Positions 4,926 through 10,800 of a stretch of DNA of 64,000 bases are shown one piece after another. The stretch lies in contig CACFZK010000006.1 of assembly GCA_902570785.1 (NCBI GenBank), positions 1-64,000 of the forward strand, given 5' to 3'. The notes under the pieces were generated by a model. It was not told the DNA's origin. It worked only from the letters and a program-made list of their open reading frames with translations, and did no database searches. Position 1 is the stretch's first letter, and each line of letters begins with the position of its first letter. Source of the stretch: an uncultured Pelagibacteraceae bacterium (GTDB lineage Bacteria > Pseudomonadota > Alphaproteobacteria > Pelagibacterales > Pelagibacteraceae). The position numbers and the translations under genes are program-made.

Positions 4926-6371
4926 ATGATAACAAACAAAACAGTTTTTTTTGTAGTAGGAATTTTGTTATTAATTCTGGGTATTTTTATGATGATCCCG
5001 TATGGAATACAGATTCTTTATAAAGAGAATAGTAACAGTTTTTTTTCATCCTCAATTATAACAATTTTTATTGGTATCCTTACGGTTCTTGCTACTTTAA
5101 AAAGAGATAACCAATTGAATCTCCAACAAGCTTTTTTATTTTCTACTCTTGCTTGGATAAGTATCGCTTTTTTTGGAAGTATTCCCTTTTTTCTATCAAA
5201 TTTAGATTTAACTTTTAGTGAAGCTTTTTTTGAAAGCATGTCAGGTATTACTACAACAGGTTCAACGGTTATATCCAATCTAGATGAAACACCAAAAAGT
5301 ATTTTGATTTGGAGAGCTATAATGCAGTGGCTCGGTGGCGTAGGTATTATTGTTATGGCAACGACAGTTTTACCACTTTTAAAAGTTGGTGGTATGCAAG
5401 TTTTTAAAACGGATTCCTCAGAACCTGAAAAACTTTTACCAAAAACTATTGAGGTCGCATCTGTTATTATTTTAATTTATACAACGTTAACAATTAGCTG
5501 CATGGCTATATATTGGTTACAAGGAATGACTGTGTTTGATAGTGTAGCTCATGCTCTTACAACGCTTGCTACGGGTGGTTTTTCAACCCACAATGAATCA
5601 ATTGGTTATTTTAAGAGTCCTGGTATTGAATTTACATCTATAGTTTTTATTATATTGGGAAGTCTTCCTTTTATAACATATTTAAAATTCATTAAAGGGA
5701 ATAGAAAAATATTTTTCACAGATGTTCAAATAAAAGGATTTATATACCTAGTTATTATTTCGATCACCATTATGTTTTTATATTTATTTTTAAATAATTC
5801 TGAATTTTCTTTTATAGATAATTTAAGAATTTCATCATTCAACGTATTATCAATTTTATCTGGAACGGGTTATGTAACTGACGATTTTGGATTATGGGGA
5901 GAATTTCCATTAATTTTCTTTTTATTTTTAATGTTTATTGGTGGATGTGCTGGTTCTACCACTTGTGGTATTAAAATTTTCAGATTACAGATACTTTTTT
6001 TGTTTATAGGAAATCATATTAAAAAATTAGTTTATCCTAATAGTGTTTTTATCATAAATTATAATAAACAAAAGGTAGAAGATACTTTTATAAACTCAGT
6101 CATAATTTTTATTTTTTCTTATTTATTATTATTTTTAATCATATCGATACTCTTATCCGTTACCGGGCTCGATTTTTTATCTGCAATTTCAGGATCAGCA
6201 ACGTCAATATCAAATGTTGGGCCAGGACTTGGAGATATGATTGGTCCAAATGGAAACTTTAGTCAAGTTTCTGATATGTCTAAATGGATACTATCTTTTG
6301 CGATGTTGCTTGGTAGATTGGAAATTTTCGCTGTTCTTGTTCTGTTTTTACCATCTTTCTGGAGGTCATAA
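4926..6371 (+). CDS. trkH: TrkH-family potassium uptake protein
   Basis: A polytopic membrane protein of 481 residues from this start, with the selectivity-filter-like loops expected for Trk/Ktr potassium channels: SGITTTGSTV near residue 105, TLATGGFSTH near 212, SGTGYVTDDFG and the final SATSISNVGPG. It would form the transmembrane pore for K+ uptake with a cytoplasmic TrkA regulator, which is not in this window. I prefer the ATG at 4926, because it places the first helix a few residues after the start as in relatives. An in-frame TTG at 4899 would add nine residues. Neither has a clear ribosome-binding site. Confidence 0.88.
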   Translation: MITNKTVFFVVGILLLILGIFMMIPYGIQILYKENSNSFFSSSIITIFIGILTVLATLKRDNQLNLQQAFLFSTLAWISIAFFGSIPFFLSNLDLTFSEAFFESMSGITTTGSTVISNLDETPKSILIWRAIMQWLGGVGIIVMATTVLPLLKVGGMQVFKTDSSEPEKLLPKTIEVASVIILIYTTLTISCMAIYWLQGMTVFDSVAHALTTLATGGFSTHNESIGYFKSPGIEFTSIVFIILGSLPFITYLKFIKGNRKIFFTDVQIKGFIYLVIISITIMFLYLFLNNSEFSFIDNLRISSFNVLSILSGTGYVTDDFGLWGEFPLIFFLFLMFIGGCAGSTTCGIKIFRLQILFLFIGNHIKKLVYPNSVFIINYNKQKVEDTFINSVIIFIFSYLLLFLIISILLSVTGLDFLSAISGSATSISNVGPGLGDMIGPNGNFSQVSDMSKWILSFAMLLGRLEIFAVLVLFLPSFWRS

Positions 6372-6392: not shown

Positions 6393-7769
6393 ATGAAAAT
6401 TTATCAAAAACAATCTTTCAAAGAGTCTTTCAAAGTTTATCTCGATATAAGAATGCTTCGTATTCTTCTATTGGGCGCAATAAGCGGTTTTCCCTGGGTT
6501 ATTATTGGTAGCAGTCTCAGTCTTTGGTTAAAAGAAGAAGGTTTAAGTAGAAGTACTATTGGTTGGGCTGGTTTAATATTTGCCGTCTATGCTTTTAATT
6601 ATTTGTGGGCACCCTTAATTGATAGGGTACGTATACCGTGGTTAACAAACAAAGTTGGGCATCGTCGAAGCTGGATCATATTAATGCAACTAATAATTTT
6701 ATTAAGTTTAGTTTTTTGGAATTTTATAGATCCAACTGCAAACTTAGCATTAGTAATCACTGTTGGTTTAATTATTGCTATTGCCTCTGCAACACAAGAC
6801 ATCACTGTGGATGCATTAAGAATTGAACAAATCGGTAAAAATGAAGGCAAGTCTATGCAGGCTGGTGCTGCGATGGCCGTGGTTGGTTGGTGGACAGGAT
6901 ATAAGCTTGGGGGAGTAATTTCACTTAATGTTGCAGATTATTTTGAGAAATTAGGTTTTCAGAATTATTGGCAAATAACTTTTTTAATATTAGGTATCGT
7001 GGTTATAGCTTGTAATATTGGTTTGTTATTTGTCAATGAACCACAAAATTCACATAGGCATGACTCACAAAAGAAAACTGACCTTGCTATACAAAAAAAA
7101 CTTGGCGCATCTAATTTTCTAACAAAATCAACAGCTTGGATAAGCGGAACAATAGGAGGTCCTATTATAAGTTTCTTTAATAAAAATGGATTAAAAATTG
7201 CATTAGGAATTTTAGGTTTTGTATTCTTATTCAAAATCGGAGAAGCCTTTCTTGGTCGTATGTCTATAATATTTTACAAAGAAATAGGTTTCACTAAATC
7301 AGACATAGCAATATATTCTAAGGGGTTAGGATGGATTACTACTGTTGTATTCACTCTCTTGGGTGGATTATTTGCTATCCGATCTGGTGTAATAAAAGCC
7401 ATGTTTGTTTCCGGTATTCTAATGGCATCGACTAATCTTCTTTTTTCTTTGCTTGCATGGTCTGGAAAATCAGAATGGTTATTTGCTGTAGCTGTTATCT
7501 TTGATGATATGGCCGCTGCTTTTGCAACGGTCGCCTTTGTTGCTTTCATTTCTATGCTAGTTGATAGAACCTACACAGCTACTCAATATGCACTCCTAGC
7601 ATCTATTGGAACTGCTGGAAGAACAACATTGGCAGCGTCTTCGGGTGCAATGGTAGATTGGCTGAACGGTGATTGGGGTATTTTTTTCGTAATTACTGCT
7701 GTGATGGTTATACCGTCATTAATATTTCTTTATATAATTAGAAAAGACATAAAATTAAGTGAAAAATAG
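6393..7769 (+). CDS. AmpG-like muropeptide MFS permease
   Basis: A 458-residue major facilitator protein with about 12-14 helices. The opening LLLGAISGFPWVIIGSSLSLWL, the loop YLWAPLIDRVRIPWL, the helix containing ATQDITVDALRIE and the following GWWTGYKLGG are signatures of the PAT/AmpG family. AmpG imports GlcNAc-anhydromuramyl peptides released from the cell wall into the cytoplasm for recycling. The next gene starts 11 nt before this stop and encodes a peptidase expected to act on such peptides, which supports the assignment. Transport has not been shown for this lineage, so the exact substrate is inferred. Confidence 0.8.
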   Translation: MKIYQKQSFKESFKVYLDIRMLRILLLGAISGFPWVIIGSSLSLWLKEEGLSRSTIGWAGLIFAVYAFNYLWAPLIDRVRIPWLTNKVGHRRSWIILMQLIILLSLVFWNFIDPTANLALVITVGLIIAIASATQDITVDALRIEQIGKNEGKSMQAGAAMAVVGWWTGYKLGGVISLNVADYFEKLGFQNYWQITFLILGIVVIACNIGLLFVNEPQNSHRHDSQKKTDLAIQKKLGASNFLTKSTAWISGTIGGPIISFFNKNGLKIALGILGFVFLFKIGEAFLGRMSIIFYKEIGFTKSDIAIYSKGLGWITTVVFTLLGGLFAIRSGVIKAMFVSGILMASTNLLFSLLAWSGKSEWLFAVAVIFDDMAAAFATVAFVAFISMLVDRTYTATQYALLASIGTAGRTTLAASSGAMVDWLNGDWGIFFVITAVMVIPSLIFLYIIRKDIKLSEK

Positions 7770-8502
7770 TTTTGGAAATAATTCTCCAGTTTTAAATCTT
7801 TACAAAAAGAATAGCTTAAAATCTAAAATTGACACCCAACTACTCTATGGAGATAATTTTAAGGTAATTAAAAAAAGTCCAAATTGGAAAAAAATTATAA
7901 TTAAAAAAGATGGGTACAAAGGTTTTATAAAAAGTAAAAAATTTCCATTTCCAATAAAGGCAAATTTTAAAGTATTTGTATTAAAAGCAAATCTGTACGA
8001 CCAGCCTAATACAAAAAAAAAAATTGGCAAATATCTCTCTTTTAACTCAAGATTAAAGGTGACTGAAAAGAAAGGAAAGTTTGGAAAATTTGAGAATTAT
8101 TGGATAAAATTATCTGATATAAAAAAGGTATCTCACAAAAATAAAAATGTATTTAAAGATATTGAATTTTTTAAAAATACTAAATATTTATGGGGCGGAA
8201 AAAGTTTTAAGGGAATTGATTGTTCTGCATTAGTTCAGGTATTTTTAAATTATAATAATAAGTTTTTTCCAAGAGACTCTATTGATCAAGAAAAATTTTT
8301 AAAAAAAAAAGTAAAATTTAAAAATTTAAGAAAAAATGATATAATCTTTTGGAAAGGACATGTGGCTGTTGCTTTATCATCAAAAAAAATTATTCATGCC
8401 TATGGCCCAATGAAAAAAGTTGTTATTATGGATACAAAAAAAGCGATAAATAGAATTGAAAGAACTGCTAATTTAAAAGTAACCAGTATAAGGAGGCTAT
8501 AA
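7759..8502 (+). CDS. SH3 / NlpC-P60 cysteine peptidase, probable cytoplasmic muropeptide endopeptidase
   Basis: A 247-residue lysine-rich protein. The first about 115 residues look like two SH3b-type domains (for example SPVLNLYKKNSLKSKIDTQL). The C-terminal half is an NlpC/P60 domain with catalytic Cys in GIDCSALVQVF, His in FWKGHVAVAL and a third polar residue near KIIHAYG. The relatives Spr/YkfC cleave between D-glutamate and the diamino acid of murein peptides. It has no signal peptide, so it should work in the cytoplasm. That suits its position, overlapping the ampG-like permease by 11 nt. The start is GTG at 7759. Downstream, AGGAGG near its end serves the next tiny ORF. Confidence 0.82.
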   Translation: MKNSFGNNSPVLNLYKKNSLKSKIDTQLLYGDNFKVIKKSPNWKKIIIKKDGYKGFIKSKKFPFPIKANFKVFVLKANLYDQPNTKKKIGKYLSFNSRLKVTEKKGKFGKFENYWIKLSDIKKVSHKNKNVFKDIEFFKNTKYLWGGKSFKGIDCSALVQVFLNYNNKFFPRDSIDQEKFLKKKVKFKNLRKNDIIFWKGHVAVALSSKKIIHAYGPMKKVVIMDTKKAINRIERTANLKVTSIRRL

Positions 8503-8571
8503 ATGCATTGGATACTACTTGGTCTTGCCGTAGGATTTGTATTTTATTTAGGCGATAAGTATTTATTTTAA
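8503..8571 (+). CDS. Tiny membrane protein, 22 residues
   Basis: The ATG follows the peptidase stop codon directly and is preceded by AGGAGG at a spacing of about 6 nt, a much better Shine-Dalgarno site than most genes here have. The 22-residue product (MHWILLGLAVGFVFYLGDKY plus two residues) is a single hydrophobic helix with a charged GDK near the end. I recognise no family. The strong ribosome-binding site and immediate coupling to the peptidase argue that it is translated. The job is unknown; a small partner of the AmpG-like permease is possible but purely inferred. Confidence 0.55.
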   Translation: MHWILLGLAVGFVFYLGDKYLF

Positions 8572-8591
8572 TAATTTAAATTTTAAAAAAA

Positions 8592-8648
8592 TTAGCTAGC
8601 TAAATAATAAATAACAACTGCTACAATTAATATTTCTAATCCACTCAT
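8592..8648 (-). CDS. Tiny membrane protein, 18 residues
   Basis: On the minus strand AAAAGGAGATAT directly precedes the ATG at 8648, again a strong Shine-Dalgarno site. The product is MSGLEILIVAVVIYYLAS, essentially one hydrophobic helix. It converges on the 22-residue ORF with 20 nt of AT-rich sequence between the two stops. No family is recognised. Bacterial small membrane proteins of this size often bind larger membrane partners, but nothing here identifies one. Confidence rests only on the start signal and composition. Confidence 0.45.
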   Translation of the reverse strand: MSGLEILIVAVVIYYLAS

Positions 8649-8792
8649 ATATCTCCTTTTGATTCTGTTTAAATATAACATTTTCTTTAGGTTTTATCTG
8701 ATCTTTAAATGTTTTATCCACAAAGGAATTTGATTATGATGCTTAAAAATGCGCACTTACTAATTTTAACAGAAACAGTATAAATTGATTAT

Positions 8793-9788
8793 ATGAAATC
8801 TTATCGTAACAAACTAAATTCTAACAGGTCTGATGCTACTGATATCAGTAAGCCATGGGATAAAGACAACCAGGCCTGGTGGGACTGGTATGTTGGTCTT
8901 GCAGACAATGATATTAAAAAAGGTCCGATAATAGCTGCTGAACCTCTACCAAATGTTACAATACCCAGTGATGATGAGGTTGTCTCAGAATTGGCTGAAA
9001 CTTATCCTTTAAAAAATGATCAAATTGATTTCTTTAGAAAAAATGGTTTTATCAAACTCAAGAAAGTTTTCTCTCCTGGAGTTGTACTTAAACTGAGGAA
9101 TGAATTAATAAAACTATTAAAAAAGGAATTTAACGTTAATCCTGATAAAGAAGCGCATGACCGATTCCTTAGTCTTGAAATGATGTGGCCCAAAAATACA
9201 CTTTTACGTTCATACGTGTTATCACCTCGTCTTGGAAAAATTTCAGCTGATCTTCTTGGAGTTCCAGCAGTCAGACTTTACCACGATAATGTTTTAGCAA
9301 AACAAGCTGGTTGTGGTAGAACGCCATGGCACTATGACGACCATCATTTTCCATTAGATACTAATGATGTAGTCACTGCTTGGGTTCCAGCGCAACCAAC
9401 GCCAATTGAGATGGGGCCACTCTCTTTCGCCTATCCGTTAGATGTACACAAGTTAGTTAATGCTGTTACATTCGAAAAAACTGGCACTGGCTATGACCGT
9501 GGAGTATCTGAAGTTTTTAAAAAAAATAGCGTCACAGTGAATGAGACTCCATTTGAGTTAGGTGAAGTTAGCTTTCATCACAATTTAAATTTTCATACTG
9601 CATCACGGAATCGAACTAATCGTAGCCGAGTAGCTTTAGCTAATACTTATTTTAGAGATGGAGCACGGGTGATAAACGCGCCCACAATGGTTTCTGGCGA
9701 CTGGCAAAAATTCATGCCAAACATAAAACCTGGCGAAGTTGCTGCTAGTCCACTAAATCCGATTTGTTGGCCTGTTGATGACAAATAA
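8793..9788 (+). CDS. Phytanoyl-CoA dioxygenase (PhyH)-family protein
   Basis: A 331-residue non-haem Fe(II)/2-oxoglutarate oxygenase. The iron ligands are visible as HYDDHH near residue 186 and the distal His in NLNFHTASRNRTNRSR near 270, which also carries the arginine expected to bind 2-oxoglutarate. Family members hydroxylate or chlorinate small molecules. The substrate cannot be told from sequence. The N-terminal about 90 residues, rich in Trp and Asp (QAWWDWYVG), are an extension before the core. Arginine codons are mostly CGN here, whereas neighbours use AGA almost exclusively, suggesting recent acquisition. The methyltransferase start overlaps its end by 11 nt, so the pair is likely one pathway. 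Confidence 0.85.
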   Translation: MKSYRNKLNSNRSDATDISKPWDKDNQAWWDWYVGLADNDIKKGPIIAAEPLPNVTIPSDDEVVSELAETYPLKNDQIDFFRKNGFIKLKKVFSPGVVLKLRNELIKLLKKEFNVNPDKEAHDRFLSLEMMWPKNTLLRSYVLSPRLGKISADLLGVPAVRLYHDNVLAKQAGCGRTPWHYDDHHFPLDTNDVVTAWVPAQPTPIEMGPLSFAYPLDVHKLVNAVTFEKTGTGYDRGVSEVFKKNSVTVNETPFELGEVSFHHNLNFHTASRNRTNRSRVALANTYFRDGARVINAPTMVSGDWQKFMPNIKPGEVAASPLNPICWPVDDK

Positions 9789-10695
9789 AAATGTAAATAC
9801 TCAAAGCGGCCTTAACTCGATCTGGACTGACAGTCTTGCTAATAATCAACAGCCAGATAATAAAGCGCTCCTCGCCCATCTAAAAACTGTTCATCAAAAT
9901 AATGCAGGTTTCACAGAAAAATGTGCAAGTTTATGCCGTGATAAAGCTGGACGCAATAGTTATGAATGGTTAGCTGAAATCGTACCTGATGTTGATGGCA
10001 TCCGTGTATTGGATCTTGCTTGTGGATCAGGACCATTACTAAAAATCTTATACGACCGTAATAAAAACTTTAAATTAAAAGGAGCGGATATAAGTCCTGA
10101 AGAATTGGAACTGGCTAAGGCGCGTCTACCAAAAGGTTCTGTTGATCTGTTTGAGTTAAAAGCACAAAATTTGACGGCTATTGATGATACCTCAATAGAC
10201 GTTGTACTGTGCCATTGGGCTTTAACATTAATGAACCCAATTACTCCAGTGTTAAATGAAATCCGTCGTGTACTGTCCTCAGGTGGAAAGTTTGCAGCAT
10301 TGGTAAATGGACCTATGGATGCAGCGCCAGGATATAATGATGTATACAAATTAATCTATAAATACGTCCAAGCTACGCTACCTAGGTATGGCGAGATTGA
10401 TTTAGGTGATCCAAGAATACGTAGCACAGATAGTTTAAAAAATCTTTTAAGTGTGGCTTTTCCAGATGCTAACATTAGCATCGAAACTAGCATGGTATCC
10501 ATGGAAGGACCCATTGCTGATGTGGCCGAAACTACTGCAGGGTTTTTTTATGCTTCATTTATTCTGTCACCAGAGACTCGTGAGGTAATGCTTTCAAAGT
10601 TATCTGATCTTCTCACGATATCAAAACAAAGTAGAGATCTTGAAAGGCAAGGACGTTTCTCAATGCCAATCAACCGCCTAGTCATCACAAAGTAA
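9778..10695 (+). CDS. SAM-dependent class I methyltransferase
   Basis: About 305 residues with the Rossmann-fold motifs of class I methyltransferases: motif I VLDLACGSGPLLK near residue 80, the acidic GADIS about 28 residues later, motif IV DVVLCHWALTLM and the post-motif EIRRVLSSGGKFAALV. The small-molecule type is more likely than RNA or DNA. I chose the ATG at 9778 rather than the adjacent TTG at 9775. It overlaps the PhyH gene by 11 nt and shares its CGN-rich arginine usage. The two probably arrived together and modify the same compound. The gene ends 15 bp from tRNA-Ser. Confidence 0.85.
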   Translation: MTNKNVNTQSGLNSIWTDSLANNQQPDNKALLAHLKTVHQNNAGFTEKCASLCRDKAGRNSYEWLAEIVPDVDGIRVLDLACGSGPLLKILYDRNKNFKLKGADISPEELELAKARLPKGSVDLFELKAQNLTAIDDTSIDVVLCHWALTLMNPITPVLNEIRRVLSSGGKFAALVNGPMDAAPGYNDVYKLIYKYVQATLPRYGEIDLGDPRIRSTDSLKNLLSVAFPDANISIETSMVSMEGPIADVAETTAGFFYASFILSPETREVMLSKLSDLLTISKQSRDLERQGRFSMPINRLVITK

Positions 10696-10710: not shown

Positions 10711-10800
10711 TGGCGGAGAGAGTGGGATTCGAACCCACGAAACGGTTTCCCGTTTACACACTTTCCAAGCGTGCGCCTTCAACCACTCGGCCATCTCTCC
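10711..10800 (-). tRNA. tRNA-Ser (GGA)
   Basis: Read on the minus strand, the 90-nt gene has the acceptor stem GGAGAGA/TCTCTCC with encoded CCA, a D arm, the anticodon loop TTGGAAA (anticodon GGA), a long variable arm (ACGGG/CCCGT-type hairpin) as in class II tRNAs, and the T loop GGTTCGAATCC. It decodes TCC/TCT. The first base of the tRNA (10800) is also the last base of the TAG stop of the upstream glycosyltransferase. The 3' end faces the PhyH/methyltransferase pair. Confidence 0.96.

Follow-up and report, generated by a model that had tools for sequence, protein, structure and literature searches.

Several small single-helix proteins of Escherichia coli, among them AcrZ, MgtS, KdpF, CydX and YohP, act as regulators or subunits of larger membrane complexes, and type I toxins such as Ibs, TisB and TimP typically come with a structured or antisense-targeted leader. 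AcrZ binds the transmembrane part of AcrB (PMC7267776), YohP is a membrane protein of 27 aa (PMC12719787), and TimP has been described as a type I toxin (PMC7667032). In the global smORF catalogue GMSC, which covers 9-99 aa, most small proteins, even those of ubiquitous families, are without a function (PMC11364881). In SAR11 strain HIMB5, a 2019 survey of intergenic regions noted no fewer than three sORFs whose function is unknown (PMC6429828); the families described here may or may not be among them. A full-text literature search returned no paper joining SAR11 with the term "small membrane protein".

We analysed a convergent pair of mini-genes in a window of Pelagibacteraceae DNA, the window being the whole stretch of 64,000 nt. 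Like the E. coli proteins, each product is shorter than 50 aa and has one hydrophobic helix, and like the GMSC and HIMB5 sORFs both are small and uncharacterised. Unlike the E. coli proteins, they showed no sequence similarity to them, and the family on the plus strand was found only in Pelagibacteraceae in the samples searched. The minus-strand gene resembles Ibs, TisB and TimP in encoding a tiny hydrophobic peptide from a transcription unit of its own, but differs in its conserved Shine-Dalgarno (SD) sequence, short predicted leader and conservation across genera, with no antisense promoter seen.

The two reading frames and their start signals

The plus mini-gene (8503-8571, plus strand) encodes 22 aa (MHWILLGLAVGFVFYLGDKYLF) with a GxAxG motif and a YLxDKYxF end, and the minus mini-gene (8592-8648, minus strand) encodes 18 aa (MSGLEILIVAVVIYYLAS). 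This agrees with the earlier note, which had described ORFs of 22 and 18 codons on opposite strands with stops 20 nt apart (spacer 8572-8591). The one hydrophobic helix claimed for each was recovered as a single membrane helix predicted by hydropathy (best 14-residue value 2.36 for plus and 2.50 for minus, a membrane-span pattern in the sequence). On the plus strand, the gene order is trkH (named by reading its sequence), an AmpG-family muropeptide transporter in the same operon direction (6393-7769; TIGR00901, E 3e-111), an SH3-NlpC/P60 endopeptidase of 244 aa (7768-8502; Pfam) and the plus mini-gene. The plus ATG directly abuts the nlpC/P60 stop codon and its SD lies within the last nlpC codons, so the plus ORF closes the trkH-ampG-nlpC strand as its final cistron, which corrects the earlier picture of an isolated gene. 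Beyond the minus mini-gene lie a PhyH-type dioxygenase gene (8793-9788; Pfam), a methyltransferase-like ORF and tRNA-Ser(GGA) (10711-10800, minus strand).

The plus SD, AAGGAGG (8490-8496, plus strand), stands 6 nt before the ATG at 8503 and, counting its flanks, makes eight consecutive matches to TAAGGAGGTG, while the minus SD, AAGGAG (8653-8658, minus strand), stands 4 nt before the ATG at 8648. Anti-SD duplex energies are -10.8 and -8.0 kcal/mol, respectively, compared with a median of 0.4 kcal/mol for the 53 large ORFs of the window (first ATG used). A core match of at least 6 was found in only 1 of these 53 ORFs and in 2 of the 51 small intergenic ATG ORFs, namely the two mini-genes. The strong ribosome-binding sites reported earlier are therefore the two best among the small intergenic ORFs of the window, and the weak or missing SDs reported for most large genes are borne out.

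With ORFs this short in an AT-rich region, we considered whether they are chance reading frames, conserved through an RNA element or simple relatedness. SD-led hydrophobic ORFs of 15-45 codons did not appear once in 3000 dinucleotide shuffles of 8441-8800, and 20 shuffles of the full 64-kb window averaged 0.25 SD-led hydrophobic mini-ORFs, against the two observed. Plus homologues were found in 22 and minus homologues in 19 of 31 mostly incomplete genomes of the window's genus. Pairwise pN/pS was 0.19 for plus and 0.31 for minus, whereas column permutations gave means of 0.91 and 0.81 (0 of 200 as low). Third codon positions are the most variable in both ORFs, with column entropies by codon position of 0.53/0.13/1.04 bits (plus) and 0.40/0.47/0.97 bits (minus), in short alignments whose columns carry limited information. 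The synonymous excess is strong in the annotated frame only, apart from the expected mirror frame, suggesting that both ORFs are translated, selected sequence. The plus peptide is moreover kept in wholly different genomic contexts. As for an RNA element, folding of the minus transcript was not above that of shuffles (z +1.4) and Rfam matched only tRNAs at the window locus; a structured RNA there was rejected on both grounds. Taken together, the chance-frame explanation is extremely improbable.

We put at about 85% the probability that both ORFs are real, independent small membrane-protein genes under purifying selection, and in both families the ORF is conserved, selected and below 50 aa, as in bacterial small membrane proteins generally. 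The earlier proposal that both are translated small membrane proteins is strongly supported by conservation, namely purifying selection, conserved starts, the SD and putative promoter of the minus gene, and a family-wide distribution. The start signals that the earlier note wished to see kept in close relatives fared unequally: every one of the 22 plus homologues in the genus has the ATG, whereas a good plus SD is kept in some relatives only, being absent, for instance, from G024, G014 and genus g3. On the minus side, an AAGGAG- or GGAGG-type SD precedes nearly all of 35 homologues.

The convergent arrangement

In 15 genomes of the genus the two mini-genes are convergent, with 12-47 nt between their stops, and an overlap of the transcript 3' ends is therefore physically likely. 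This arrangement, together with the 20-nt spacing in the window, favours the idea, raised in the earlier note, that the pair works as a single convergent unit in which the transcripts overlap at their 3' ends and regulate each other as antisense RNAs. However, the spacer is conserved neither in length nor in sequence, with a mean identity of 46% in these genomes, the divergence of unconstrained sequence, against 79% for the plus and 73% for the minus ORF. A pattern scan detected no terminator-like site in the spacer, a consensus scan of 8572-8700 detected no opposing promoter-like site, and the minus transcript, as described above, is no more structured than shuffles. The genes also part company elsewhere: in genus g4 they are found on different contigs or at a great distance from each other, in G013 one gene is inserted between them, and in G030 the minus-type gene is on another contig than the plus gene. 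In G001, nlpC is disrupted and the plus gene absent while the minus gene is kept, suggesting that the two are independent, although this assembly is fragmented and 75% complete, and a sequencing error is possible.

Since the spacer is unconserved and the genes are found apart, the pairing looks accidental, bringing together two unrelated families. With no terminator-like or opposing promoter-like site detected by the scans and a minus transcript that is not unusually structured, the same observations indicate that mutual antisense regulation is not a conserved function, and we regard the antisense unit as very unlikely.

In G030, downstream of 25449-25514 on contig C4 (L013), a tiny convergent SD-led ORF (METALVLMVILIAYNTFN), unrelated in sequence, stands ahead of a strong inverted repeat, in the position that other genomes give to the minus gene. 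In sister-genus loci (L171, L178, L176, L185 and others), the place that the mini-genes have in the window's genus is taken by a conserved element about 100 nt long, which follows immediately on the nlpC stop and precedes tRNA-Ser. It includes a GC-rich hairpin (minus-strand sequence GGGCAGTGGAGGGAGACTGAAGCTGCCC) and gives only a weak, sub-threshold match to the sRNA sX4, the matched stretch also covering the tRNA.

The minus family, its putative promoter and its surroundings

Minus-family peptides of 18-21 aa follow the consensus MSG[WLF]EIL.V..[VIL]Y, with M1, S2, G3, E5 and I6 invariant. Their distribution is patchier than that of the plus family: 37 of 197 Pelagibacteraceae genomes matched at E<1e-3 and one more at 0.00105, in genera g1 (that of the window), g4, g6 and g13, and the gene was usually single-copy in the genomes searched. 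In a wider search of 289 genomes, the profile matched only the window's own genome, and no viral contig was confirmed for the family.

In the window, a putative extended -10 element, TGtTATATT, lies upstream of the minus gene (8672-8680, minus strand). A -10 box with at most one mismatch to a TATAAT-like sequence, together with an upstream TGn, precedes 16 of the 35 homologues, compared with a mean of 1.0 and a maximum of 5 in 500 shuffles. In most homologues the predicted -10 lies 19-29 nt before the ATG, giving a leader of about 16-22 nt. On these signals, the minus gene is a monocistronic stand-alone unit with its own promoter-like extended -10, a short leader and an SD.

The minus gene lies just downstream of tRNA-Ser in G150, G176 and G135; the two are separated in the window by the genes for PhyH and the methyltransferase. 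A hairpin (GGGGCACCTRGCAACAGAACGCCCC) duplicating the end of the alphaproteobacterial tmRNA gene comes after the minus gene in G030, G005, G162 and G102. The ends of tRNA-Ser and tmRNA genes are classic integration hot spots, and because the minus gene is found in both settings, it may have travelled with integrating elements.

Copies of the SAR11 tmRNA gene 3' end with this hairpin are dispersed in the genome (L116, L123, L074 and L077), including one about 1.4 kb from the tmRNA in the window's own genome (L196, G000:C2:29107-32404), and look like duplicated attachment sites of islands that integrate at ssrA. Partial 3' copies of tRNA-Ser were also recorded in relatives, at L176 (3882-3955) and downstream of the plus gene in G028 and G018. 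They point to an insertion hot spot between tRNA-Ser and the minus gene, a segment that in the window (8793-10695) holds the PhyH and methyltransferase genes.

The size of the product (18-21 aa), its hydrophobicity, the gene's own putative promoter, the patchy distribution and the neighbouring tRNA-Ser and tmRNA-end copies would all suit a type I toxin of the Ibs, TisB or TimP kind, silenced by an antisense RNA and maintained near integration sites as a selfish or stress gene. Against this, the consensus scan of 8572-8700 offers no promoter-like site opposite the gene, and the short leader, in a transcript no more structured than shuffles, leaves little room for a long structured or antisense-targeted region. 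The usual single copy and the stability of the sequence across genera, with its invariant MSGxEI start, also argue against a toxin, which we consider unlikely. We slightly prefer a membrane accessory role, in which the minus product would assist at the membrane as a peptide expressed alone, its gene being carried near the tRNA-Ser and tmRNA-end hot spots.

The plus family and its candidate role

Plus-family peptides are 22-34 aa long and follow the consensus [WY]IL.GxAxG...YL.DKY[IL]F, in which G7, Y15, D18, K19 and Y20 are invariant. Of 197 Pelagibacteraceae genomes, 112 had the family in a profile search (E<1e-3); this is a hand count of the match list, made after setting aside chance matches to prolyl-tRNA ligase, a protein of 440-450 aa matched in nearly all genomes through GHIFYFGDKY. 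In a larger draw, a hand count gave 119 of the 138 Pelagibacteraceae genomes that are at least 90% complete, and complete single-contig genomes of another genus are among the carriers. The gene does not appear to be a universal core subunit, as it is absent from about 14% of the near-complete family genomes and from all sampled sister-family genomes. Across 385 class-wide genomes, the profile matched in Pelagibacteraceae only. A single IMG/VR contig carries a plus peptide adjoining an MFS gene; this contig looks chimeric, and a viral origin was rejected.

The upstream neighbour changes with the genus, being nlpC in g1, a MazG-like gene in g4, a LivM-like permease gene in g3 and others in g5 and g14, while in g12 the plus gene precedes a transporter-like gene; the MazG-like, LivM-like and transporter-like names are readings of the sequences. 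A LivM fusion considered for G153 ("open frame 484") was rejected, the stop being intact. In one g5 genome (G077:C97, L111), two plus mini-gene copies lie within about 1 kb (5886-5945 and 6881-6940).

Within the window's genus, the plus start lies 0 or 1 nt after the nlpC stop wherever measured, and 1 nt after it in most genomes. In the window itself, the ORF follows the stop directly and in the same frame (8503-7768 = 735 nt), as would be needed if stop-codon readthrough made it a C-terminal membrane anchor of NlpC/P60. The 1-nt gap of most relatives puts it out of frame, the peptide follows unrelated genes in other genera, and nlpC of sister genera has no plus peptide. The frame shift in relatives rules out readthrough as a general explanation, and we give it a negligible chance. 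Where relatives have no good SD, translational coupling is the likelier route of initiation, because the start there abuts the preceding stop. The start lies close behind that stop also in g3 and g4, and several starts of the family have no recognisable SD. We infer that the peptide is translated by coupling, that is, termination-reinitiation, and that the strong SD of the window is a local addition.

Database searches gave no direct indication of function. Five plus-family peptides and one minus-family peptide had no plausible match in Pfam (maximum E 10), and the five plus peptides had none in NCBIfam; accordingly, no profile of KdpF, CydX, AcrZ or another curated family was matched (Pfam for both families, NCBIfam for plus). 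Solved structures gave only chance-level matches for both families, including FliR at E about 0.5, which was rejected.

The sequence nevertheless points to a possible mode of action. Once made by coupled re-initiation, the plus peptide would insert as one helix and might pack against a larger membrane protein through a small-residue face (G7-A9-G11), and the conserved YLxDKY[IL]F end would anchor it at the membrane surface. We advance the packing step tentatively, as a possibility somewhat short of even odds; if correct, it would liken the peptide to AcrZ with AcrB. Since a GxAxG (GxxxG-type) face and an interfacial aromatic and charged end fit a packing helix, the peptide could be a small accessory subunit or modulator. 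Its partner is probably not the neighbouring enzyme, given that the gene stands behind different operons in different genera. A broader reading, speculative and rather doubtful, would make the plus peptide a widespread, lineage-specific subunit with an accessory role in a major inner-membrane complex of SAR11, and the minus peptide a membrane-trait cargo of elements integrating at tRNA-Ser and tmRNA genes. On that reading, the plus gene would have persisted while operons were shuffled by hitch-hiking as the last coupled cistron of any operon behind which it landed.

By the searches made here, both families are unannotated. The single-contig genomes of another genus that carry the plus family may include cultured strains, in which its function could be tested. 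That a membrane protein of 22 residues can be present in about 86% of near-complete Pelagibacteraceae genomes and still match no model in Pfam or NCBIfam suggests that part of the membrane proteome of these bacteria, though under selection, has been missed because annotation omits very short ORFs.
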